Source: a virus. Taken from it: 22,711 nt of DNA. The DNA lies in IMG/VR virus record IMGVR_UViG_3300025132_000328, positions 1-22,711 of that record. One strand, written 5' to 3'. Numbering within the stretch: the stretch's first letter is position 1; every line of letters starts with the position of its first letter. Positions 182 to 10,890 of this stretch are shown one piece after another. Position numbers and translations under genes: made by a program. The notes under the pieces were generated by a model that saw nothing but the letters and a program-made list of their open reading frames with translations, searched no databases and had not been told where the DNA came from.

Positions 182-1486
182 ATGGCATCAACATATACAC
201 CTTTAGGGGTCGAATTAATGGCAACCGGTGAAAATGCCGGTACTTGGGGAACAAAAACTAATACAAATTTATCAATAATCGAACAGATCTCTGGCGGATA
301 TAAAGTACAAACTTTAAATGCTGCAGGGACTGGAGCAAACACAACAGCTTTGGCTGTAACAGACGGAAACACTGGTGCAACACTGGCTACTAGAATTATT
401 GTTTTAGGTGCAGAGTCACCAGAAGCGATTACAGGAAATAAAATTGTTACAGTACCTAATGATGTAGAAAATTTTTACATAGTAAAAAACAGCACAAGTG
501 GTGCTTACACCGTACAATTTAAAACAGCATCTGGATCAGGCGCAACAGTAACATGGGGTACTACTGATAAAGACTGGAAAATTATTTATGTAGATGGCGC
601 TGGAAGTAATCCAAGCGTTGTTGATGTTGGTGTAACCACAGCAGTAAACCCACAAACTTTAACAAATAAAACTTTAACTTCTCCAGCAATTGGAACTTCA
701 ATTTTAGATACTAACGGAAACGAACTTGCACTTTTAACAGCTACAGGTTCTGCAGTAAACGAATTTACAATTGCAAACGCGGCTACTGGCAGTGGACCTA
801 CTCTTTCATCTACTGGTGGCGATACAAATATTGATATTAACGTAACTCCAAAAGGAACTGGAGACGTTGTTCTTGCAGGTGATACTGTAAAAGTTGGAGA
901 CTCAGGGGCAGCAGCTACTTTGACTTCTAACGGAGCAGGAGCCCTAACAGTAACTACTGGCGGAACAGAAGATTTAGTTCTAAGCACAAACAGCGGAACT
1001 AACTCGGGCACTATTACTATCACAGATGGCGCTAACGCCGACATGACTATTGCTCCTAACGGTTACGGTAGAGCTACTTTCAGCGGTCAAGGTAAAATTG
1101 AAAGTGTTGCAGAAAAAGTTACAGTTTCTGCTAGTGGACCAACAGGAACAGTTAACTATGATGTACTCACACAAGCAGTTTTATACACAACTGCAAACAA
1201 TGCGGCAAACTACACTCTAAATTTTAGAGGTGATGGTTCTACGACTTTGAACACTATTATGGATACAGGTGAGTCTGTAACACTTGCTCACATTTCTACA
1301 AATGGTGGATCAGCTTATTACAATAACGCAGTTACGGTTGATGGATCAAGTATAACACCAGAATGGCAAGGAGGATCAGCTCCTTCCGGAGGAAATGCCA
1401 ATTCAAATGATATTTATTCTTATACAATTATTAAAACTGGGGATGCTACGTTTAAAGTGTTTGCATCTCAAACACAATTTGCATAA
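182..1486 (+). CDS. Tail-fibre-like structural protein, 434 aa
   Basis: The start is supported by AAGGAG about 6 nt upstream of ATG. The N-terminus (residues about 10-36, with ATGENAGTWGTKTNTNLSII) is a signature I recognise from fibre-region proteins of marine podoviruses. The middle carries the fibre motif NPQTLTNKTLTSPAIGTS (about residues 157-174), common in phage tail-fibre repeats, followed by Thr/Gly/Asn-rich beta-type repeats such as NIDINVTPKGTGDVVL and MTIAPNGYGRATFSG. The C-terminal ~110 residues (TGTNYDVLTQAVLY-like onward) are less repetitive and could form a distal domain. There is no enzyme motif. It lies between another fibre protein end and a glycine-rich adhesin-like gene, which fits a virion tail appendage. 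Which appendage it builds is not visible. Confidence 0.7.
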   Translation: MASTYTPLGVELMATGENAGTWGTKTNTNLSIIEQISGGYKVQTLNAAGTGANTTALAVTDGNTGATLATRIIVLGAESPEAITGNKIVTVPNDVENFYIVKNSTSGAYTVQFKTASGSGATVTWGTTDKDWKIIYVDGAGSNPSVVDVGVTTAVNPQTLTNKTLTSPAIGTSILDTNGNELALLTATGSAVNEFTIANAATGSGPTLSSTGGDTNIDINVTPKGTGDVVLAGDTVKVGDSGAAATLTSNGAGALTVTTGGTEDLVLSTNSGTNSGTITITDGANADMTIAPNGYGRATFSGQGKIESVAEKVTVSASGPTGTVNYDVLTQAVLYTTANNAANYTLNFRGDGSTTLNTIMDTGESVTLAHISTNGGSAYYNNAVTVDGSSITPEWQGGSAPSGGNANSNDIYSYTIIKTGDATFKVFASQTQFA

Positions 1487-1507
1487 TAAAATAGGAGGAT
1501 AAAAATT

Positions 1508-2317
1508 ATGCCACTATTAAGTACAAAAGGGGGCGGAAGCGCATCAGCATTTGGTTTTACAAGTTTAGGTATACCAGCAGAATACGAAGTACAATTTACA
1601 GTCGTTGGCGGAGGAGCTGGCGGAGGCGGAGACATCGGCGGAGGCGGCGGTGGCGGAGGCTATTTTCACAATTCAGCATATACATTCAACAGAGGCACTA
1701 CATACCCAGTCACAATTGGCGGAGGCGGAGGCGGAAGTTTCCGAAGAGGTGGTAATGGAAGCGCTTCAGAAGTTCAATCAGCAAGTCCAAGTATCGGCGG
1801 CGGTGGCGGCGGCGGTAGTAGAGGACAACCCGCAAACCCGGGACCTGGTGGTGGCGGCGGAGGCTCTGGATATGGAGCTTCTCCAGTTGGATCTGGTGGA
1901 CCTTATGGTTATCCAGGCGGCGGTGGCCCAACAGGAGCTGGCGGCGGAGCCGGAGGAACTGGCGGTAGTGGAGATTCCGGAACTGGTGGAGTTGGATTAG
2001 AGAGCCCAATAGATAGTACTTATTATGGCGGTGGCGGCGGAGCCGGAGGTTGGAATGCATCAACTGCAGGACCTGGCGGAAACGGCGGTGGCGGAAATGG
2101 CGGCCGTAGTGGTAGACAAGCCGGCGGTACAAATAGAGGTGGCGGTGGCGGCGGAGCTGGATCAGCCTACTCTTCTTCGGCTGGCGGTTCTGGTGTAGTT
2201 CTTGTTAAATTACCAACTGCTTATTTTAGTGGTACCACATCAGGTAGTCCAACTGAAAGTACATCAGGTGATTTTACAATTTTAAAATATACAGGAAATG
2301 GATCGGTAGAAGCGTAA
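1508..2317 (+). CDS. Glycine-rich adhesin-like tail protein, 269 aa
   Basis: ATG follows AGGAGG with about 9 nt spacing. Residues 1-33 are ordinary and end in a beta-strand (EYEVQFTVVGGG). Residues about 34-228 are extremely Gly-rich, with runs of 4-8 glycines broken by Ser, Asn, Pro, Tyr and Arg. The last ~42 residues (GSGVVLVKLP, then TSGSPTESTSGDFTILKYTG) are a conserved-looking closing strand region. This layout, a strand with VVGGG, a polyglycine core and GSGVV(L/I) at the end, is typical of the glycine-rich domain of phage tail adhesins, where polyglycine-II sheets display variable loops for receptor binding. The role as receptor-binding tip is inferred from this and from its place between fibre genes. 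The coding strand is locally G-rich, unlike the AT-rich surroundings. Confidence 0.7.
   Translation: MPLLSTKGGGSASAFGFTSLGIPAEYEVQFTVVGGGAGGGGDIGGGGGGGGYFHNSAYTFNRGTTYPVTIGGGGGGSFRRGGNGSASEVQSASPSIGGGGGGGSRGQPANPGPGGGGGGSGYGASPVGSGGPYGYPGGGGPTGAGGGAGGTGGSGDSGTGGVGLESPIDSTYYGGGGGAGGWNASTAGPGGNGGGGNGGRSGRQAGGTNRGGGGGGAGSAYSSSAGGSGVVLVKLPTAYFSGTTSGSPTESTSGDFTILKYTGNGSVEA
1939..2049 (+). repeat. In-frame 18-bp direct repeat pair within the glycine-rich gene
   Basis: The 18-mer TGGCGGCGGAGCCGGAGG occurs at 1939-1956 and again at 2032-2049, exactly 93 bp (31 codons) apart and in the same reading frame. Near copies of GGCGGAGGCGG and GGTGGCGG occur throughout about 1608-2165. Recombination or slippage between such copies would delete or add whole Gly-rich loops without breaking the frame. 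This is seen directly in the sequence; the variability itself is inference. Confidence 0.7.
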
Positions 2318-2318
2318 C

Positions 2319-2738
2319 ATGGCTCATTTTGCAAAAATAGATGAAACTAATAAAGTGCTTCATATATATGCCGTAGACAATGAGGAAGTTCCAGATGAAG
2401 CAACAGGTATAGCATTCTGCGAAGCTACTGCAGGACCAGGAACATATATTCAAACTTCTTATAATACATACGGAAAAAAACATTATACTAATGGGGAGTT
2501 ATCTGCGGATCAATCAAAAGCATTTAGAGGAAACTATGCGGATAAAGGCGGTTATTGGCTACCTGACGAAAATCATTTTCAACCAGTACAACCTTATTCT
2601 TCATGGACTTGGAATAGTTCTACAGCTACATGGGATCCTCCTGTACCTAGACCAGAAACAGATGCAGAAGCAGGCACATATTGGGATTGGGATGAAGATA
2701 CTCAGAACTGGGTGCAGATCCATATTGTAATAGATTAA
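2319..2738 (+). CDS. Trp-rich fibre-associated protein, 139 aa
   Basis: Starts one base after the stop of the glycine-rich gene, so the two are probably translationally coupled. The N-terminus (MAHFAKIDETNKVLHIYAVD) and the TYIQTSYNTYG stretch match a small protein I know from many marine myo- and podovirus fibre regions, of unproven function (fibre tip, assembly factor or chaperone). Seven tryptophans (W80, W96, W98, W105, W122, W124, W131) are packed into the last 60 residues together with many Tyr, Pro and Asp, for example GTYWDWDEDTQNWV. It is the last gene before the halogenase/oxygenase cassette. Real gene with high confidence; exact role uncertain. Confidence 0.75.
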   Translation: MAHFAKIDETNKVLHIYAVDNEEVPDEATGIAFCEATAGPGTYIQTSYNTYGKKHYTNGELSADQSKAFRGNYADKGGYWLPDENHFQPVQPYSSWTWNSSTATWDPPVPRPETDAEAGTYWDWDEDTQNWVQIHIVID

Positions 2739-2780
2739 GTTTTGTTGTAGCATAAGCTACGTGATAGAAAGTTATTAAAG
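2739..2780 (+). other. 42-nt gap upstream of the oxygenase cassette with a small hairpin
   Basis: This is the second longest gap on the rightward strand. It holds a short perfect hairpin, GTAGC (2747-2751), loop ATAA, GCTAC (2756-2760), extendable by one G-U pair. No U-run follows it, so it does not look like an intrinsic terminator. It could be an RNA processing or pausing element, or nothing. No convincing promoter boxes were found here, and the Shine-Dalgarno for the next gene is weak (TTAAAG just before ATG). Confidence 0.3.
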
Positions 2781-3344
2781 ATGTTTTGGCCGTTTGAATT
2801 AGATAAAATTGAATTACATTGTGCTATAGAAAATTTTCTTTCTGATAAAGAATGTAAATCACTTATAGAATTAGGTCTGTCTAAAAAAATTAAAAAAGGT
2901 TCAACCTTTAATGGACAAAATGATCCTGTTAGAGAAAGTAATATATCATGGATAATGGGTGAAGACGCAGAATGGTTATATAGAAAAATAACTGATGCAA
3001 CTCTTCGTGTTAATAAAACTCAATTTCATTTTGATTTAACAGGTCTAGGTGAGGGTTTACAGTTTACGCAATATATAGCACCCGGAGGGAAGTACGGAGC
3101 CCATACTGATAGTGGACCTAAAACATGTATTAGAAAATTAAGTTTTGTTATTCAATTATCTAATCCAACAGATCATGAGGGAGGTAATTTAAAACTTCAT
3201 TTTTCAGATGATCCTTTGGTTATTCCTAAAAGAAAAGGATCTATTTGCTTTTTTCCAAGTTATGTGTTACACGAAGTTACTAAAATTACTAAAGGACAGA
3301 GGTTCAGTATTGTCGGTTGGATAACAGGACCTCAGTTTAGGTAA
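2781..3344 (+). CDS. Fe(II)/2-oxoglutarate-dependent oxygenase (prolyl-hydroxylase-like fold), 187 aa
   Basis: A double-stranded beta-helix oxygenase. The metal triad is visible as H108-x-D110 (in KYGAHTDSG) and H164 (in SYVLHEVTKI), and R174 (GQRFSIVGW) is the expected 2-oxoglutarate-binding arginine 10 residues after the distal His. The intervening EGGNLKLHF strand and the IPKRKGSICFFPS turn match the prolyl 4-hydroxylase-like 2OG-Fe(II) superfamily (PKHD-type). The usual core is complete at 187 aa, preceded by a helical N-terminal part (residues 15-75). Such enzymes couple 2OG decarboxylation to hydroxylation of a substrate, which cannot be predicted here. First gene of the nine-gene modification cassette. 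Confidence 0.82.
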   Translation: MFWPFELDKIELHCAIENFLSDKECKSLIELGLSKKIKKGSTFNGQNDPVRESNISWIMGEDAEWLYRKITDATLRVNKTQFHFDLTGLGEGLQFTQYIAPGGKYGAHTDSGPKTCIRKLSFVIQLSNPTDHEGGNLKLHFSDDPLVIPKRKGSICFFPSYVLHEVTKITKGQRFSIVGWITGPQFR

Positions 3345-3356
3345 AGGTTAGATTGA

Positions 3357-3878
3357 ATGCAGAAAGTAATAAACAACGTTTTAAGTAAAGAAGATATTTT
3401 TCAAGTGTATGAAAATCTTATTGATGACAACATGTGGAATTTAAGTAGAAGTTCTCAAGGGAATCTTGCAGGTACTTTTCCAGGTTGTACTTTAATAAAC
3501 GACGGACAACCTGTTTATAATAATCCCTATTGGATAGGGTACTTTACTTGTTTATTTGATAGATTAAATCAAAAATTACAGGAACAACATAATTTTAAAC
3601 TTGTAAGAAAAATAAAACGAATAGCTTTAAATGCAGCAAACAATAATTACTACACAGAATTTCATGGAGACGGAAATAATACATATAGTATTGTAGGTTT
3701 TCTTACACCACAGTGGTCAGAGGAATGGGGTGGAGAATTAAATGTAGAAGGTGAAATAATAAAATATAAACCGGGTGATTTTGTTTTATTTAATTCTGAA
3801 AAATTACATAAGTCACAAGAAATAAAAAAACAATTGCCATATTGGAGGGTATCTATAAATTATGTTATTGAAAACTAA
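3357..3878 (+). CDS. Fe(II)/2-oxoglutarate-dependent oxygenase, 173 aa
   Basis: The metal ligands are H103-x-D105 (TEFHGDGN) and H151 (SEKLHKSQEI), with R164 (YWRVSINYV) as the 2OG-binding arginine. Between them is the WSEEWGGELNVEG strand followed by KPGDFVLFNS, the pattern of 2OG-Fe(II) oxygenases of the PF13640 type. The WGGEL element is shared with the last cassette gene (8106-8660), suggesting the two are distant paralogues. The gene starts 12 nt after the previous stop with AAGG at 3344-3347, and its 3' end overlaps the halogenase by 17 nt. Substrate unknown. Confidence 0.82.
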   Translation: MQKVINNVLSKEDIFQVYENLIDDNMWNLSRSSQGNLAGTFPGCTLINDGQPVYNNPYWIGYFTCLFDRLNQKLQEQHNFKLVRKIKRIALNAANNNYYTEFHGDGNNTYSIVGFLTPQWSEEWGGELNVEGEIIKYKPGDFVLFNSEKLHKSQEIKKQLPYWRVSINYVIEN

Positions 3879-5397
3879 AGAAGTAAAAACAATATGTATT
3901 GTAGGTGGCGGATCTGCAGGTTGGATGTCTGCTGCAACTATAACAAAACTCTTTCCAGATATACAAGTATATTTAATTGAAAGCCCTGACTTTAAAACTA
4001 TTGGAGTTGGAGAAAGTACAATTGCACCTGCAATTAATACGTGGTTAGAAATGTTAGAGATTAAAGATAAAGATTTTATGAAAGAATGTGATGCTACTTA
4101 TAAACTAGGTATTATGTTTAAAGATTTTTATAAAAAAGACACAGAACAATTTTTTTATCCTTTTCAAAAAGCTTACGAAAGAAGACTACCGTTTGGAAAA
4201 AATGCATGGTTTTATAAGAAACAAATGAACCCAGCATTATCAAATGCTGATTATGCTAGATTTATAACTCCCATTACACATTTTGCTGATCAATATAAAA
4301 TGCCTAAAAACCCAATGGACATTCCAGGGTTTAATGCTGATCAAAATATTGCCTACCATTTTGATGCAACTAAACTAGGACAATGGTTAAAAAATAAATT
4401 TATTAAGTCAAATAAATTTAAGCATGTATTGGAAGAAATTAAATCTGTTGAAACAGATGATAACGGGATAAAAACTTTAAACAAAAAGTATACTGCTGAT
4501 TTATTCTTAGATTGTAGTGGCTTTAAATCACTTCTTATGGAAAAGATAGGTTGTAAAAAAAATAGAGCTGCTTCTAAAATTCTTATAAATAATCAAGCAT
4601 GGACAGCTCATGTTCCTTATGACGACGTCAATAAAAAAGAAGAGATGAAACCCTATACTTTGTGTACCGCAATTAATAATGGATGGGTTTGGGAAATACC
4701 TACTTGGGGAAGATTAGGTGTGGGCTATGTTCATTCTGACAAATACATTGAAACTAACAGTGCGTTAGTAGAATTTCAAAAATATTTAAAAGCTAAAGGT
4801 TATAAATATAAAGACCTTAAATATAAGTTAGTAAAATTTGACACCTATAGACATGAAAAAATGTTTGTTAAAAATGTTTGTTCTATTGGACTAGCTTCTT
4901 GTTTTATAGAGCCTTTAGAGTCGACTGGTTTAGTTACAATTCATGAAAACTTACTTGCATTAGCTAGATGTTTAAAAAGACATAAACATATTACCCAATT
5001 AGATAGAGATAGTTTTAATCTTCACACTAATATTACATATGATGGTTATGTAGATTTTGTTGGAATGCATTATTATGCAACAGCTAGAAATGATAATGAG
5101 TATTGGAACCATTATAGAAATAATAGTATTTTAGATTTATCGTATAGTAAAACAGAAGATATATTTTTAAATATTCATGCAAGAATGATTGAAAATTTTT
5201 ATAGTTCTAAATACGGTTTTCATTATATTGCTGCAGGTATGAATTTTGATCCCCTTGAGTTGATGAGTCCAAAAGCTTTTAGAGAGGAATACCAAGAAGC
5301 AATTAAAGTTAGAGATGACTGGGTAGAAAAAATAAAAGAAGAAGTAAAAAAAGAACCCACTCATTTTGAATATTTAAAAAACAAAATATATGGTTGA
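3862..5397 (+). CDS. Flavin-dependent tryptophan-halogenase family protein, 511 aa
   Basis: All hallmarks of the FADH2-dependent halogenase family are present in the right order. The N-terminal FAD-binding GGGSAGWM is at residues 15-22, then GVGEST at 48-53. K81 in CDATYKLGIMF matches the catalytic lysine that carries the activated halide (Lys79 in PrnA). The family signature W-x-W-x-I-P is at 275-280 (GWVWEIP), followed by GRLGVGYVH. E353-S-T-G in IEPLESTGL matches the active-site Glu/Ser pair. The length (511 aa) is normal. Family members halogenate Trp or other aromatic rings using FADH2, O2 and halide. No flavin reductase is visible in the window, so a host reductase would be needed. Translation starts inside the previous gene behind GGAGGG at 3844-3849. 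Substrate and halide are unknown; a cyanophage relative (VirX1) acts on varied aromatics. Confidence 0.9.
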   Translation: MLLKTKEVKTICIVGGGSAGWMSAATITKLFPDIQVYLIESPDFKTIGVGESTIAPAINTWLEMLEIKDKDFMKECDATYKLGIMFKDFYKKDTEQFFYPFQKAYERRLPFGKNAWFYKKQMNPALSNADYARFITPITHFADQYKMPKNPMDIPGFNADQNIAYHFDATKLGQWLKNKFIKSNKFKHVLEEIKSVETDDNGIKTLNKKYTADLFLDCSGFKSLLMEKIGCKKNRAASKILINNQAWTAHVPYDDVNKKEEMKPYTLCTAINNGWVWEIPTWGRLGVGYVHSDKYIETNSALVEFQKYLKAKGYKYKDLKYKLVKFDTYRHEKMFVKNVCSIGLASCFIEPLESTGLVTIHENLLALARCLKRHKHITQLDRDSFNLHTNITYDGYVDFVGMHYYATARNDNEYWNHYRNNSILDLSYSKTEDIFLNIHARMIENFYSSKYGFHYIAAGMNFDPLELMSPKAFREEYQEAIKVRDDWVEKIKEEVKKEPTHFEYLKNKIYG

Positions 5398-5959
5398 TAT
5401 AGTTGAAGGATATATGCCTGAACAAGATATTCAAGAAATAGAAAAGAAAGTTCTTGATAATCCACACTTCCCCTGGTTTTGGGAGGGTCGTACAACTTCA
5501 GATAATTATCCCGCTATGATGCACATAATGGTAGGACGATATGATGAACCACCTCTTACAGAGTTTAAAATTAATTCTCCCTTCTTTCATTTATTCGAAA
5601 GAATATTTTTAGATTTTTGTAATAAAAATAATATAGAAGTTAATCAAATTTTAAGAGCAGCTGTTAATTTAACTTGGTATTCAAAAGACAGATATGGAGA
5701 CCCCCACGTAGATCATCCCCATGAATATGGACATAAAGTATGTATGATGTATCTACACGATTTATCATGGGGACCTACTTTTATTTTTAATGAAAAAGGA
5801 ATGGGTAAAGAAAATAATCCCAAAGAGTTTACTGTCGCTAAAGAAGTTCCTTTTGAAAGAGGAAAAATAATTATTTTTTCAGGGGAGCACTGTCACGCTG
5901 CTGGATTTGTAAAAAAATCTAATCAGAAAAGAATCGCTGCAGTGATTACATTTAAATGA
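5390..5959 (+). CDS. Fe(II)/2-oxoglutarate-dependent oxygenase, 189 aa
   Basis: The second half (residues about 88-189) is a cupin-type oxygenase core with H106-x-D108 (GDPHVDHPHEYG), a distal His most likely H169 (GEHCHAAGF) and R181 (KRIAAVITF) as 2OG ligand. The GKIIIFSGEHCHAAG turn is typical of phage 2OG-Fe(II) oxygenases. The N-terminal half is rich in Trp, Phe and Tyr (PHFPWFWEG) and has no obvious homology. The start overlaps the halogenase end by 8 nt, pointing to coupled translation and stoichiometric expression with the halogenase. Substrate unknown. Confidence 0.78.
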   Translation: MVDIVEGYMPEQDIQEIEKKVLDNPHFPWFWEGRTTSDNYPAMMHIMVGRYDEPPLTEFKINSPFFHLFERIFLDFCNKNNIEVNQILRAAVNLTWYSKDRYGDPHVDHPHEYGHKVCMMYLHDLSWGPTFIFNEKGMGKENNPKEFTVAKEVPFERGKIIIFSGEHCHAAGFVKKSNQKRIAAVITFK

Positions 5960-6576
5960 GTGAAACTTTAATACCTTTATTTTCATCACTTGTAATGGTG
6001 AATGACACAGAACTATCTGAAATAGAAGAAAGAATTATTTTAGATTTTATAGATAAATGTAGCTTTGTGAAAACACGTGAAGACGAGAACTCTTCACATA
6101 TATCAGAAGATTACTATGTTTTAGATGATCCAAAATTAGCAGCCATAAGAAACAAGATAGCTATAGAAGTTAATAAATATATAGATCATTTACAGTATAA
6201 AGGACGATTTGATTTTTCAAGTTCTTGGATAACTAAAACAAAACCTGGAGAACAAAGCCATTATCACACCCATAGCAATACTATTTTTAGTGGCATTTTT
6301 TATATTAAAACAAAAGATGATTGTGGTAATCTAGCACTAACTGATTTTACTAAAACAAAATGGGGCATTAAAAAGAAAAAAGCTAACGTCTATAATTCTA
6401 GCACTTGGGAGATTACACCATTAAAAAATAGAATTATTATTTTCCCATCAAATGTGCCCCATAAAATAAATACCAATAGAACCAAACATACTAGATTCTC
6501 TATAGCTTTTAATATAATACCGTTAGGGAATATAGGAGGTGGAGAACAGGAAATAATATATGGAAAACAAAATTAA
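5956..6576 (+). CDS. 2OG-Fe(II) oxygenase-like protein with an HxH metal motif, 206 aa
   Basis: This matches the phage/bacterial family I know as 2OG-FeII_Oxy_5 (TIGR02466-type). It has a conserved W91 before the core, H104-x-H106 (HTHSNTIFSGIFYIK), the RIIIFPSNVPHKIN turn with H169, and R180 (TRFSIAFN). The second metal position is His rather than the Asp of classical 2OG oxygenases, as is usual in this family. The N-terminal ~90 residues are helical and contain the family-like DYYVLDDPKLAAIR stretch. The start is in an ATGA overlap with the previous gene, and the end overlaps the next by 17 nt. Two further members of the same family lie at 7065 and 7574. Biochemical activity of the family is poorly known. 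Confidence 0.75.
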   Translation: MSETLIPLFSSLVMVNDTELSEIEERIILDFIDKCSFVKTREDENSSHISEDYYVLDDPKLAAIRNKIAIEVNKYIDHLQYKGRFDFSSSWITKTKPGEQSHYHTHSNTIFSGIFYIKTKDDCGNLALTDFTKTKWGIKKKKANVYNSSTWEITPLKNRIIIFPSNVPHKINTNRTKHTRFSIAFNIIPLGNIGGGEQEIIYGKQN

Positions 6577-7057
6577 TTTTATAAAAAATTTTATAAAGTT
6601 CGACGTACCTTTTGATTTTAATAGTTTAGCTTTAATGTTAAGTAGTTATAATTTTTCGTCTAAAATAACAAGTAACCATACTTCAGAGTATATTTTAGAT
6701 AGTACTTTTCAAATAAAAAATGTTGATAAGGATCCTAAATTTAAATCTTTATTACAATTATTAAACAACAACTTTAATAAAGAACAAGAATATATTGATA
6801 TGGATATATTTTATTCAACATCTATCGGTGCATCTGGTATTACTCATAAAGATGAATATAGTGTTTATATATTAGGTGTATGTGGACACACTATTTATAA
6901 AGTAGAACAAGAAATTTTTGAAGTTTTTCCAGGAGATTTATTGTGTATACCAGCACATACCACTCATACAGCAATAGGCATGACGCCTAGAATTATATTG
7001 TCTTATGCTAAACCTCTTGAGGCTCGTCCACAAATTAATAATGTAAGGTACAAATAA
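6560..7057 (+). CDS. Cupin-fold protein, possible 2OG oxygenase relative, 165 aa
   Basis: Residues about 78-150 read as a cupin barrel: H96-x-D98 (GITHKDEYSVYILG), a turn with GHTIYKVEQEIFEV, then PGDLLCIPAHTTHTAIG with candidate ligands H133 and H136, and R144 before a closing ILSYA strand. This is closer to the JmjC/cupin_4 arrangement than to the prolyl-hydroxylase-type neighbours, so it may be an oxygenase or a non-catalytic or sugar-binding cupin. A clear AGGA at 6548-6551 lies 8 nt before the ATG, inside the preceding gene. It is embedded between two HxH oxygenase-like genes, which supports a shared pathway. Substrate unknown. Confidence 0.65.
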   Translation: MENKINFIKNFIKFDVPFDFNSLALMLSSYNFSSKITSNHTSEYILDSTFQIKNVDKDPKFKSLLQLLNNNFNKEQEYIDMDIFYSTSIGASGITHKDEYSVYILGVCGHTIYKVEQEIFEVFPGDLLCIPAHTTHTAIGMTPRIILSYAKPLEARPQINNVRYK

Positions 7058-7064
7058 CACATTT

Positions 7065-7574
7065 ATGGTACGAAGCTTTGATCCATTTATATATCAAAAC
7101 ATATTTCATGAATATGAACTAGACATAACACAAGGGGAAATAGATCTAGTCTACATGTTATTAAAAGATTTGTCTGTAAATAATTTGCAGCATAGTGATT
7201 CTAATGTAAAGACCTCATATAAAGATATAGATATTTTAGATACGCCTGGTTTATCTAATTTAAAAAAACAAATAACCGATATTTTAAAAACACATAACTT
7301 ACGTCTAAATAACAATTGGGGTCAATTATATAATAAGGATAATGAGCACAAGGTTCATAATCATCCTTTTTCTACTTGTTCAGGAATAATATATTTAGAT
7401 CCTAATGAGGCATCGCCTACTATTTTTTATGATAGAGATTTTAAAACTTATGTACATGCTTTTAAAAAAAATCAACTTTTATTATTTCCCTCTTACATTC
7501 CACATGAAGTATCTAGATTAAATAGCAATGAAAAAAGATTAGTAATATCATTTAACACAGATGAAAGGATTTAA
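7065..7574 (+). CDS. 2OG-Fe(II) oxygenase-like protein with an HxH metal motif, 169 aa
   Basis: Second member of the 2OG-FeII_Oxy_5-like set. The core aligns without gaps to the 5956 gene: W85, then H98-x-H100 (HNHPFSTCSGIIYLD), LLLFPSYIPHEVS with H147, and R158 (KRLVISFN). Its N-terminal part (FDPFIYQNIFHEYEL) differs strongly from the paralogue. It begins 7 nt after the cupin gene with no strong Shine-Dalgarno and ends in a TAATG overlap with the next gene. The substrate cannot be predicted. Confidence 0.75.
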   Translation: MVRSFDPFIYQNIFHEYELDITQGEIDLVYMLLKDLSVNNLQHSDSNVKTSYKDIDILDTPGLSNLKKQITDILKTHNLRLNNNWGQLYNKDNEHKVHNHPFSTCSGIIYLDPNEASPTIFYDRDFKTYVHAFKKNQLLLFPSYIPHEVSRLNSNEKRLVISFNTDERI

Positions 7575-8122
7575 TGCAAAATATATTCTCAACAGGAATA
7601 CAAGTACATCAGTTGGAAGGTATTGATAATGAAAAACTTATTCAATATGCTGAAAAATATTCGTTAAGAAATCAATTAAAAGAAAAATACGACATACTAA
7701 ATAATAGTATATTTTCTACCGTAAACAATTTGGTAGAAATAAAAATGAATGATTATTTTAACCACATATATAACAACACACACCATATTAAGTTAACAGA
7801 AGCGTGGGCTAATGTGGACAATGATACAGCAATAACAGTACCACATACACATAAGTTTCATTTTGTAGTAGCTGTTTATTACCCTTTGTCTACAGATGGT
7901 TCTATTCGATTTATGAATCCGATGCCCAATTTAATAGTTCATCAAAACGATAGCATGATAGATAAGTATAATGAATACAATAGTGACTTTTATACACTGC
8001 CTGTTAAGACAGGGCAGTTAGTGGTATTTAATTCTATGTTGTATCATTATATAAATCAATCAAACAATAAAAGAATATCTATTGCCTATAATGGAAGTTT
8101 AATAAATGGACCTAGCATTTAA
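7574..8122 (+). CDS. Diverged 2OG-Fe(II) oxygenase-like protein with an HxH motif, 182 aa
   Basis: Third and most diverged member of the HxH set: W78 (EAWANV), H91-x-H93 (PHTHKFHFVVAVYY), GQLVVFNSMLYHYIN with H158, and R167 (KRISIAYN). The Ser-Gly of the usual SGIxY strand is replaced by VVAVY, and there is a longer insertion (about residues 116-140) between the barrel halves. AAGGA at 7565-7569 precedes the ATG within the previous gene's end, so the two are probably coupled. The 3' end overlaps the next gene by 17 nt. It is likely metal-binding; catalysis is not assured. Confidence 0.7.
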   Translation: MQNIFSTGIQVHQLEGIDNEKLIQYAEKYSLRNQLKEKYDILNNSIFSTVNNLVEIKMNDYFNHIYNNTHHIKLTEAWANVDNDTAITVPHTHKFHFVVAVYYPLSTDGSIRFMNPMPNLIVHQNDSMIDKYNEYNSDFYTLPVKTGQLVVFNSMLYHYINQSNNKRISIAYNGSLINGPSI

Positions 8123-8660
8123 TTTTGAAGATAAATTATTTTGGATACATAACTTTTTACCACAAGAAACATACAAAAACATGTATGTCGAATTTATAAA
8201 AAGTAGAAATAAATTAAACTTTACAAAAAGTAGTGTGGCCTGGAATACTTTTAAAGAAGAAGTTGATAATATGTCAGAAAGTTATAGCCAACAAAGTCAA
8301 GAAGAAAGTTTGCAAGAATATTTAAAGACTTATCACAATGTATTAAAGAACCAATCTTTTATAAATTTTTTAGATTTTAAATTTAAAAGTCATTTACGAA
8401 TATTTAAACACAATCAGCATTTAGCATGGCACTCTGACGAAAAAGATAATAGAAAATATGCAGCTAGTTTTTATTTTAATAGAACATGGAATGATAATTG
8501 GGGTGGAGAACTTATGTTTAAAAGTAAAGAAGCCTCGGGTTTTATACCGGTGCTAGGCAACTCTTTAGTTATAGTTAAGAAGGGATTGATACACAAAGTA
8601 AACGCTAATCTTAAAAAAACCCACCCTAGATTAAGCATACAGACTTGGATAAATAGCTAG
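8106..8660 (+). CDS. Fe(II)/2-oxoglutarate-dependent oxygenase, 184 aa
   Basis: Last cassette gene. The triad is H109-x-D111 (LAWHSDEKDN) and H163 (KKGLIHKVNA), with R175 (PRLSIQTWI) as 2OG ligand. The WNDNWGGELMF strand resembles the WSEEWGGELNV of the gene at 3357, so these two look like old paralogues at opposite ends of the cassette. The N-terminal ~90 residues are helical and Gln/Glu/Ser-rich (SQQSQEESLQEY). The ATG is preceded by GGAAG at 8093-8097 inside the upstream gene. A 52-nt gap follows, the longest on this strand. Substrate unknown. Confidence 0.82.
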   Translation: MDLAFNFEDKLFWIHNFLPQETYKNMYVEFIKSRNKLNFTKSSVAWNTFKEEVDNMSESYSQQSQEESLQEYLKTYHNVLKNQSFINFLDFKFKSHLRIFKHNQHLAWHSDEKDNRKYAASFYFNRTWNDNWGGELMFKSKEASGFIPVLGNSLVIVKKGLIHKVNANLKKTHPRLSIQTWINS

Positions 8661-8712: not shown

Positions 8713-10890
8713 ATGCTACAAAAACTAGGTTTTGCTCCAGGATTCAACAAACAAGTTACCGAAACAGGCGCTGAAGGACAGTGGTTTGACGGTGATAATG
8801 TACGTTTTAGATATGGAACACCTGAAAAAATAGGGGGTTGGAGTCAATTAGGTGAGAGTAAATTAACAGGAGCTGCAAGAGCTATCCATCATTTTGAAAA
8901 CAATGACAGTGTTAAATATGCTGCCATAGGAACTAATAGAATTCTATACGTATATTCAGGGGGAACTTATTACGATATTCACCCTATCAGAGCTACTTTA
9001 ACTGGAGCTAATTTTTCATCTACATCGTCATCAACGTCAGTAACCATAACATGCAGCGGGGTGCATGGACTAATAGAAAATGACATTGTTCTATTTGATG
9101 ACGTAACAGGTTTATCAGGGTCTACATACACTAACGCTACCTTTGAGGACAAAAAATATATGGTTGCTTCTGTGCCATCAGCTACTACTTTTACGGTGAC
9201 AGCGGCTACTGCTGAAGCAGGAACTCCGTTAAGCACCGCAGGATCGGCATCTGTTCTTTGTTATTACAACGTTGGTCCTTCTCAACAATTAGGTGGTTTT
9301 GGATGGGGAACTGCTAACTGGGGAGGTGAAGCTAGTGCACCGGTTACAACTACGTTAGCTTCTGCATTAACAAATACTGTTGATACTACAATTGTATTAA
9401 CAGACTCTAGCCAGTTTCCATCATCAGGAGAAATTAGAATTGGATCTGAAGATATTAGTTATACAGCTAACAACACGGGAACTAACACTTTGAGTGGTGG
9501 AGCAAGAGCTGTAAACGGAACCTCACCATCCACACACAGTTCTAGCGCAACAGTTACAAATATATCTGACTTTGTTGCATGGGGAGAAGCATCTACAGCT
9601 GACTTTACAATCTCTCCAGGACTATGGGTATTAGATAACTTTGGTCAAAAATTAATTGCACTTATTTATAATGGTGCTTGTTTTGAATGGGACGGAGCTC
9701 CATCAAACGCAACAGCAACAAGAGCTACAATTATTCCAAACGCCCCAACTAAATCTCGTCATGTAATTGTTTCTACACCGGATAGACACTTAGTATTTTT
9801 TGGAACAGAAACAGATATAGGAGATCCGACATCTCAAGACGATATGTTTATTAGATTTTCTGATCAAGAAAATATTAATCAAACAAATTCTTACACTGTG
9901 ACTGCTACTAATACCGCAGGCACACAGAGACTAGCTGATGGATCAAGGATCATGGGAGCTATCAAAGGTAGAGATGCTATTTATGTTTGGACTGATACTG
10001 CATTATTTCTTATGCAGTTTGTGGGTGCACCCTTTACATTTTCTTTTCAACAAGTAGGAACCAACTGTGGACTACTGGGTAAGAACGCAGCTGTAGAAGT
10101 TGATGGCGCTGCGTACTGGATGTCAGAGAATGGATTCTTTACTTACGACGGACAATTAAAATCTATGCCATGTTTGGTAGAAGATTTTGTTTACGATAAT
10201 ATTAACACGACAGCCAGAGATTTAGTAAATGCAGGATTAAACAACTTGTTTGGTGAAGTGACTTGGTTTTATTGTAACAGTGGATCTAATGTGGTTAACA
10301 GACAAGTAACTTATAACTATCTAGACTCAACAGTTAAAAGACCTATATGGACAACAGGAAGTTTATCTAGAACCGCATGGCAAGACTCTGCTGTGTTTGG
10401 TTTACCACACGCCACCTCTTATGATGTAAATAGTAATGCTTCTTATGATGTTATTGGAAACACTGACGGCTGTACAATATACTATGAACAGGAAACAGGG
10501 ACCGATCAAGTTGATGCTGGAGGTGCTGTTACAGCTGTGATAGCTAACATATCTTCTGGTGATTTTGATATTACACAAAGAAGAAGCAATACTGGACAGA
10601 CTGTAGGGATGCCGGATCTAAGAGGAGACGGAGAGTTTATAATGAGAATTAGTAGATTTATACCAGATTTTATTGATCAAACAGGCAATACGTCGGTAAA
10701 GTTTAAAACAAGAATTTATCCCAATAGCACACAAGTTACAAATAGCTTTACTTGTACGTCATCAACCACTAAAAAAGATATAAGAGTCCGAGCTAGACAA
10801 ATTGCACTAGAGATTGCAAACACTACTAGTGGAGAAGATTGGAAGTTAGGAACGTTTAGATTAGATATACACCCAGGAGGTAGAAGATAA
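8713..10890 (+). CDS. Tail hub/nozzle-like virion protein, 725 aa
   Basis: The N-terminus (GAEGQWFDGDNVRFRYG, then KIGGW, residues about 19-43) is a signature I recognise from a large, abundant protein of Pelagibacter-type podoviruses. The layout is beta-rich with no enzyme motif: a Ser/Thr-rich Ig-like insertion at about 96-175, a second insertion with SSGEIRIGSEDISYTAN at about 235-250, then a propeller-like region with IKGRDAIYVWTDTALFLM and AAYWMSENGFFTYDGQ. The overall pattern recalls tail nozzle or packaged-DNA-stabilising proteins (T7 gp12 / P22 gp10 type), but that assignment is inference. It opens the second block of structural genes after the oxygenase cassette, and AGGA precedes the ATG. 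Confidence 0.6.
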   Translation: MLQKLGFAPGFNKQVTETGAEGQWFDGDNVRFRYGTPEKIGGWSQLGESKLTGAARAIHHFENNDSVKYAAIGTNRILYVYSGGTYYDIHPIRATLTGANFSSTSSSTSVTITCSGVHGLIENDIVLFDDVTGLSGSTYTNATFEDKKYMVASVPSATTFTVTAATAEAGTPLSTAGSASVLCYYNVGPSQQLGGFGWGTANWGGEASAPVTTTLASALTNTVDTTIVLTDSSQFPSSGEIRIGSEDISYTANNTGTNTLSGGARAVNGTSPSTHSSSATVTNISDFVAWGEASTADFTISPGLWVLDNFGQKLIALIYNGACFEWDGAPSNATATRATIIPNAPTKSRHVIVSTPDRHLVFFGTETDIGDPTSQDDMFIRFSDQENINQTNSYTVTATNTAGTQRLADGSRIMGAIKGRDAIYVWTDTALFLMQFVGAPFTFSFQQVGTNCGLLGKNAAVEVDGAAYWMSENGFFTYDGQLKSMPCLVEDFVYDNINTTARDLVNAGLNNLFGEVTWFYCNSGSNVVNRQVTYNYLDSTVKRPIWTTGSLSRTAWQDSAVFGLPHATSYDVNSNASYDVIGNTDGCTIYYEQETGTDQVDAGGAVTAVIANISSGDFDITQRRSNTGQTVGMPDLRGDGEFIMRISRFIPDFIDQTGNTSVKFKTRIYPNSTQVTNSFTCTSSTTKKDIRVRARQIALEIANTTSGEDWKLGTFRLDIHPGGRR

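Follow-up and report, generated by a model that had tools for sequence, protein, structure and literature searches.

Introduction

Enzymes of two kinds, 2-oxoglutarate (2OG)-dependent Fe(II) oxygenases and halogenases, are already well known in marine phages. Several papers place the phage 2OG oxygenases in host metabolism or in DNA repair but offer no direct test (PMC3037559, PMC9602691, PMC9146016). Here we describe a locus in which such enzymes lie beside a putative adhesin: the nine genes G1 to G9 at positions 2781-8660 of IMG/VR record IMGVR_UViG_3300025132_000328. The entire 22,711-bp record, which we call the window, is probably a genome fragment of a tailed phage. A first-pass annotation of the window had described seven oxygenase-like genes, one cupin-like gene and one halogenase-like gene in a single run within a phage tail region, and this description is borne out. 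The run consists of nine intact plus-strand open reading frames (ORFs) with nothing else encoded between them, several neighbours overlapping by 4-17 nt. Pfam and PHROG matches point to seven 2OG-Fe(II)-type oxygenases, one cupin/JmjC-like protein (G6) and one flavin-dependent halogenase (G3), and the run is preceded by a Gly-rich fibre tip and followed by a conserved virion gene. Judged from sequence comparison, the case is about evenly balanced that the nine genes encode co-transferred tailoring enzymes, which would oxidize and halogenate the phage's own receptor-binding tip (and/or its partner protein) and form an exchangeable host-recognition module.

Related systems in described phages

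Cyanophage Syn10 resembles the window in several respects. Its halogenase VirX1 is a homologue of G3, and a single region not far from Gly-rich genes encodes VirX1, another halogenase and seven oxygenase-like proteins. According to the title of Gkotsi 2019, as cited in PMC10452541, VirX1 iodinates diverse substrates. Unlike the source of the window, however, Syn10 is a Synechococcus phage classed in Kyanoviridae, and its gene families and gene order are different.

By the downstream virion gene, the closest annotated phages include 023Pt_psg01 and the Pelagibacter phages HTVC027P and HTVC023P (40-47% identity); at the nucleotide level (megablast), the window has no match in the phage collection. 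In these three phages, the corresponding slot by the fibre genes holds a single 2OG gene or several, and clustered, non-orthologous 2OG genes have been described in HTVC023P-type phages (Wittmers 2022, PMC9599517). In contrast to the window, no halogenase is annotated in their slot. The word halogenase is absent from PMC9599517, and the accessible portion of that paper draws no link between the 2OG genes and the adhesin.

Variable loci of a similar kind are also known from metaviromic islands, for which the catalogue of variable 'host recognition' genes includes Fe(II)-dependent oxygenases besides tail fibres and gp38 adhesins (Mizuno 2014, PMC3909814). That study proposes no mechanism, describes no co-transfer of tip and cassette and has no halogenase in its table; the likeness of our locus to these islands rests on variability between contigs rather than on read recruitment. 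Many low-identity 2OG oxygenases (PF13640, PF13661, PF13759, PF05721; 24 genes) also occur in a single phage, S-SCSM1, where they were interpreted as host metabolic reprogramming (PMC9602691). On the side of the adhesin, the best parallels are Pam3 gp24 and S16 gp38, in which a glycine stem carries variable distal loops as the receptor-binding domain. In the accessible portion of the Pam3 paper (PMC9608196), no tailoring enzyme is mentioned. Among the open-access papers searched, we found no report of oxygenases co-transferred with a Gly-rich tip, nor of modification of such a tip.

Cassettes follow the tip across a hypervariable slot

With the virion gene or the halogenase as query, ~170 related loci were collected, and their ORFs were labelled with iterated profiles. 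Among these loci, the region is a hypervariable slot with a recurrent order: fibre, Gly-rich tip, a small protein of the t23 family, variable oxygenases with or without a halogenase, and the virion gene. The 64 complete slots hold a mean of 4.7 oxygenase/halogenase enzymes, and the expected ligand motif is present in 541 of the 566 oxygenase-like ORFs of the surveyed loci. Enzymes of these two types make up 301/549 ORFs inside the slot versus 25/439 outside it, in a set that is partly selected. When loci were picked by the virion gene alone, and hence unselected for enzymes, an oxygenase or halogenase was found within 4 kb upstream of that gene in 41 of 44 loci (mean 3.1), versus 0 of 20 within 4 kb downstream.

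Cassettes follow the tip, not the backbone. In partial Mantel tests on 49 dereplicated loci, cassette similarity is associated with similarity of the tip (r 0.42) and of the t23 protein (r 0.475; both p=0.0005), while the value for the virion gene is 0.11 (p=0.07). Likewise, cassettes are shared in all nine of the pairs with similar tips (9/9), compared with 2 of the 100 pairs whose virion genes are similar. The t23 protein moves together with tip and cassette.

The slot also has variants of orientation and placement. The oxygenase run is inverted (minus strand) between fibre and virion gene in HTVC027P (L009:10295-11956) and in loci L028 and L089. In L149-L158, a second arrangement is seen, with halogenase-containing oxygenase clusters downstream of a virion-family gene, not upstream.

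A shared block with borders inside the flanking genes

When IMG/VR was scanned four times independently, once each for the halogenase, G6, G5 and G4, relatives of at least 80% identity came from the same six or seven contigs only. Seven contigs have the order fibre end, Gly-rich tip, t23, G1, halogenase, G4, G5 and G6 at 77-90% protein identity, the shorter ones showing part of this order as far as each reaches; their virion gene is ~47-49% identical to that of the window. Aligned with L002, the window is 81-87% identical in DNA from 1048, within the fibre gene, to 7063, six bases past G6. Identity over 1048-3339 is 81%, and the 5' part of the fibre gene has diverged. Synonymous divergence (dS) between window and L002 is 0.31-0.49 for the genes of the block versus 1.02-1.45 for the fibre and virion genes on either side. 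The left edge of the block thus lies inside the fibre gene t182 (ORF 182-1486, plus strand), of which 1048-1486 is the shared 3' end. In L020, the relation is reversed: from 8651 on (virion gene onward) its DNA is 94% identical to the window, while upstream there is no similar DNA and an unrelated cassette.

Two further pairs of loci show such borders. The 96.2% identity of L107 and L101 extends over 6,886 bp: it sets in 40 bp before the fibre gene ends and stops ~140 bp after the virion gene begins, yet their virion proteins are 39% identical overall and their flanks have diverged. In L138 and L136, similarity is lost 40 bp past the start of the virion gene, a border like that of L107/L101. 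The L107/L101 exchange appears recent, with the fibre end and the start of the downstream virion gene as its likely borders.

The same comparisons change the picture given by the first-pass annotation, which had seen the nine genes as a complete tailoring pathway. Only G1, G3, G4, G5 and G6 travel together; G2, G7, G8 and G9 fall outside the shared block, and a single nine-gene pathway was rejected. In the block-sharing relatives, copies of G2 (81-83% identical) lie downstream of the virion gene. A strict coupling of G2 to the halogenase module was also rejected, since L177 has G2 with a different cassette. G7, G8 and G9 are absent from these relatives. G7 is 53% identical to a gene of HTVC027P in the same slot on the opposite strand, and relatives of G9 (57-66%) reside in other oxygenase clusters. 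The earlier annotation had set conservation as a unit against shuffled, independently acquired content; both occur here, as a core unit is conserved with the adhesin and the rest of the locus is shuffled oxygenase content.

The halogenase

G3 (3862-5397, plus strand) belongs to the core and matches PF04820 (Trp_halogenase; 2e-91, 307 bits) and phrog_2928 (4e-132). Its best match in the Protein Data Bank (PDB) is VirX1 of cyanophage Syn10 (6qgm; 2e-90, 34.7% identity), and we confirmed that the Syn10 gene is that of VirX1. The motifs of flavin-dependent halogenases are invariant across 64 sequences: G15-G17/G20 (GxGxxG), K81, E350 and W275/W277/P280 (WxWxxP). We take K81 and E350 to correspond to the catalytic Lys/Glu pair of PrnA. 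G3 therefore belongs to the flavin-dependent halogenases (VirX1/PrnA superfamily), and incorporation of halide is predicted. The view that a single cyanophage halogenase is known proves to be an understatement, as homologues of G3 are found in 67 annotated phage records and Syn10 itself has two halogenases. A scan of bacterial and archaeal genomes for the halogenase, made with two short peptide patterns whose reach is limited to near relatives, gave no relative.

Oxygenase-like and cupin-like proteins

All remaining cassette genes are on the plus strand. G1 (2781-3344; PF13640, 1e-15; relatives 77-80%), G2 (3357-3878; PF13640, 1e-7) and G4 (5390-5959; phrog_274, 8e-30; relatives 86-90%) have the HxD...H triad and the C-terminal Arg of the Fe(II)/2OG superfamily, with ligands H108-D110-H164-R174, H103-D105-H151-R164 and H106-D108-H169-R181, respectively. 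G9 (8106-8660; PF13640, 6e-12), individually gained, shares the triad (H109-D111-H163) with a less conserved Arg. G5 (5956-6576; PF13759, 1e-18; TIGR02466 above cut-off; relatives 85-87%), the individually gained G7 (7065-7574; PF13759, 5e-13) and G8 (7574-8122; PF13759, 2e-11) match PF13759 strongly, but their triad is HxH...H, without the usual carboxylate (H104-H106-H169-R180, H98-H100-H147 and H91-H93-H158-R167). In homologue alignments, the ligands of all seven are invariant or nearly so. The first-pass annotation had reported the metal ligands and the 2OG arginine as visible in each oxygenase, with a His pair or His/Asp. The ligands hold, and the two types can now be assigned: HxH in G5, G7 and G8, HxD in the other four. 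For the arginine the statement is too broad: in G7 and G9 a C-terminal Arg exists in the window proteins, yet it is conserved in <85% of homologues. In the PF13759/TIGR02466-type proteins (5956-6573, 7065-7571 and 7574-8119), the invariant HxH...H hints at a three-His metal site.

G6 (6560-7057; phrog_4992, 5e-10; relatives 84-87%) forms the right edge of the shared block. Its ligands H96-D98-H136-R144 are invariant across four sequences, and its scores fall below the family cut-offs (JmjC_2, 19.4 bits against a cut-off of 22, E 0.0008; Cupin_2, 18.6 against 27.2, E 0.0016). It may work like a cupin/JmjC-type hydroxylase, though it is not filed as a member of either family.

The active sites of the cassette are intact on motif grounds, as the earlier annotation had supposed, and the shared genes are under purifying selection (dN/dS 0.07-0.43). 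The cassette has a low GC content (0.26-0.33). GC at third codon positions (GC3) is 0.15-0.24 inside versus 0.11-0.34 outside; since GC3 is alike inside and outside, the low GC reflects amino-acid composition, and a recent foreign origin inferred from it was rejected. A role in anti-phage defence was also rejected, PADLOC giving generic 2OG matches only, plus a weak AbiEi match for G8.

Two annotation problems touch these families. The PHROG label 'DNA endonuclease V' sits on families that match 2OG-oxygenase proteins: phrog_274/phrog_19810 match G2, G4, G5, G7 and G9 (3357-3875, 5390-5956, 5956-6573, 7065-7571 and 8106-8657), and cyanophage genes annotated denV fall among the matches of G4. 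The label is probably wrong for these families, because phrog_274 covers most of the oxygenases found here. Second, the proteins annotated 'putative ferrochelatase' in HTVC023P (L010:8289-8906) and 023Pt_psg01 (L011:10054-10707) match no Pfam family, ferrochelatase included, at E<=0.1, and they show an RHKD...H pattern like that of a 2OG-Fe(II) oxygenase. Reports that 2OG genes are paired with ferrochelatases may stem from a mislabel.

The putative tip and its neighbours

The gene directly downstream of the fibre gene, t1508 (1508-2317, plus strand), encodes a Gly-rich protein (PF21722, Gly_rich_2; 59 bits against a cut-off of 24, 8e-16). Its AlphaFold2 model (pLDDT 75, pTM 0.77) aligns structurally (VIA) with the Bxb1 tail tip (Z 12.8) and the Pam3 fibre (7ypx; Z 12.0, 2.9 A over 156 residues), far above the next row, the Gly-rich domain of ALK (Z 5.7). 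Foldseek alone gave no match for the model at E<=0.001. S16 gp38 is absent among the fold matches, which is not evidence against likeness. The family alignment has conserved Gly columns as well as variable loops and inserts, and the protein has a Gly-rich domain with a fold of the Pam3 gp24/S16 gp38 type. The authors of the Pam3 study propose that its Gly-rich domain attaches to the host receptor by distal loops that vary and are borne on a glycine stem (accessible portion of PMC9608196). Based on the match to Bxb1 and Pam3, the role of the Pam3 domain and the Gly columns with variable loops, we read 1508-2317 as a putative receptor-binding tip.

Between tip and cassette lies t2319 (2319-2738, plus strand; phrog_7759, 9e-31), a small Trp-rich protein of the t23 family. 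Members of this family have invariant SW/W/P positions in the family alignment and occur in marine phages of different hosts, in these loci mostly near the fibre tip. The t23 protein is possibly a tip assembly factor or a substrate of the enzymes. The right boundary of the slot is the conserved virion ('stabilization/constituent') gene (8713-10890, plus strand; phrog_3287, 1e-94). No PolA was found among the annotated genes of the window.

A possible mechanism and its alternatives

How could the cassette act on the tip? We propose that the cassette enzymes would be produced alongside the virion proteins. The Fe(II) oxygenases would then hydroxylate side chains of freshly translated tip protein and/or t23 before assembly, and the halogenase, where present (as in this phage), would halogenate side chains of the same proteins. 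Such modification would add chemical variety to the variable loops that contact the host, with an effect on adsorption. Action on the tip or t23 before assembly is suggested by the exchange of tip and enzymes across diverged backbones and by the intact enzymes under purifying selection. If different tips require different enzymes, tip and enzymes would be swapped as one, with recombination points in the fibre end and the start of the virion gene. The fuller form of this proposal is a modular post-translational diversification of the receptor-binding tip, in which matched oxygenase sets and a halogenase are inherited with each tip and extend recognition beyond the amino-acid sequence; we hold it tentatively, at somewhat less than an even chance.

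Several results weigh against modification of the tip. The seven closely related contigs amount to about two lineages by sequence. A rank-based (Spearman) Mantel test is not significant, while Pearson and tail tests are. The signal between tip and cassette lies in the high-similarity tail, and we attribute the result on ranks to the many pairs that resemble each other in nothing, whose ranks are mostly noise. Trp and Tyr are not enriched in the tip or t23 of halogenase-bearing loci, and no residue count of tip or t23 correlates with the number of oxygenases after correction. His in the tip is higher with a halogenase (2.8 vs 1.5), a difference we do not rely on (p=0.005, uncorrected, 18 tests). 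More generally, linkage alone can co-transfer adjacent genes, and a host receptor or envelope as the target would co-vary with the tip equally.

The last point leads to a first alternative, that the infecting phage uses the enzymes to alter the host surface, either the receptor itself or a precursor of it, which might keep progeny from sticking to debris or shut out other phages. Here tip and cassette would both address one receptor, which predicts the same co-transfer, and glycosyltransferases are annotated nearby in other phages with this virion gene. None of the nine proteins, however, matches an envelope-biosynthesis family above cut-off in Pfam or NCBIfam, G8 having a weak, sub-cut-off NCBIfam match to a carbohydrate-cluster oxygenase. 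On balance, we regard action on the host surface as unlikely, though a serious competitor.

We judge it similarly improbable that these are auxiliary metabolic genes acting on host metabolism (2OG/nitrogen balance or a metabolite) that merely sit in a hot spot by the fibre genes, their co-transfer being linkage. This is the published view of cyanophage 2OG oxygenases (PMC3037559; PMC9602691), and linkage by itself can give shared blocks. Yet it leaves unexplained both the dominance of oxygenases and halogenases in the slot, counted above in a partly selected set, and why sequence-distinct enzymes accompany sequence-distinct tips. For a metabolite route, moreover, no scaffold-making or transport genes were recognized in the window.

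A far less probable reading, akin to the 'Ferrojan Horse' proposal raised for HTVC027P (PMC12753301), is that the proteins with an oxygenase fold serve the tail as Fe carriers or structural components instead of being enzymes. The metal ligands are conserved and the genes lie in a tail region, but the putative 2OG-binding Arg is also conserved in most of the oxygenases, and a role in carrying Fe does not account for the halogenase. In addition, the virion proteomics text for S-SCSM1 covers 45 proteins and names no 2OG enzyme (PMC9602691), as expected of enzymes that act before assembly. Finally, nucleic-acid modification (DNA/RNA repair or hypermodification), which was suggested earlier for phage 2OG oxygenases encoded close to DNA repair genes (PMC9146016) and which the PHROG labels 'DNA endonuclease V' would seem to favour, is very improbable too, given that the genes lie among virion genes and track the adhesin and that the label is attached to proteins with 2OG-oxygenase Pfam matches.

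Implications for marine phages

Modification of the receptor-binding tip by its neighbouring enzymes, if true, would account for the abundance of these enzymes in the genomes of marine phages. Genes for 2OG-Fe(II) oxygenases rank with the most often recurring 'auxiliary' genes there, and their fixed place beside the adhesin and their transfer with it make service in host recognition a concrete, testable alternative. The tip is also a candidate native target for viral halogenases of the VirX1 type. Host ranges predicted from sequence only would, in the case of a modified tip, miss part of the chemistry by which these phages recognize their hosts.

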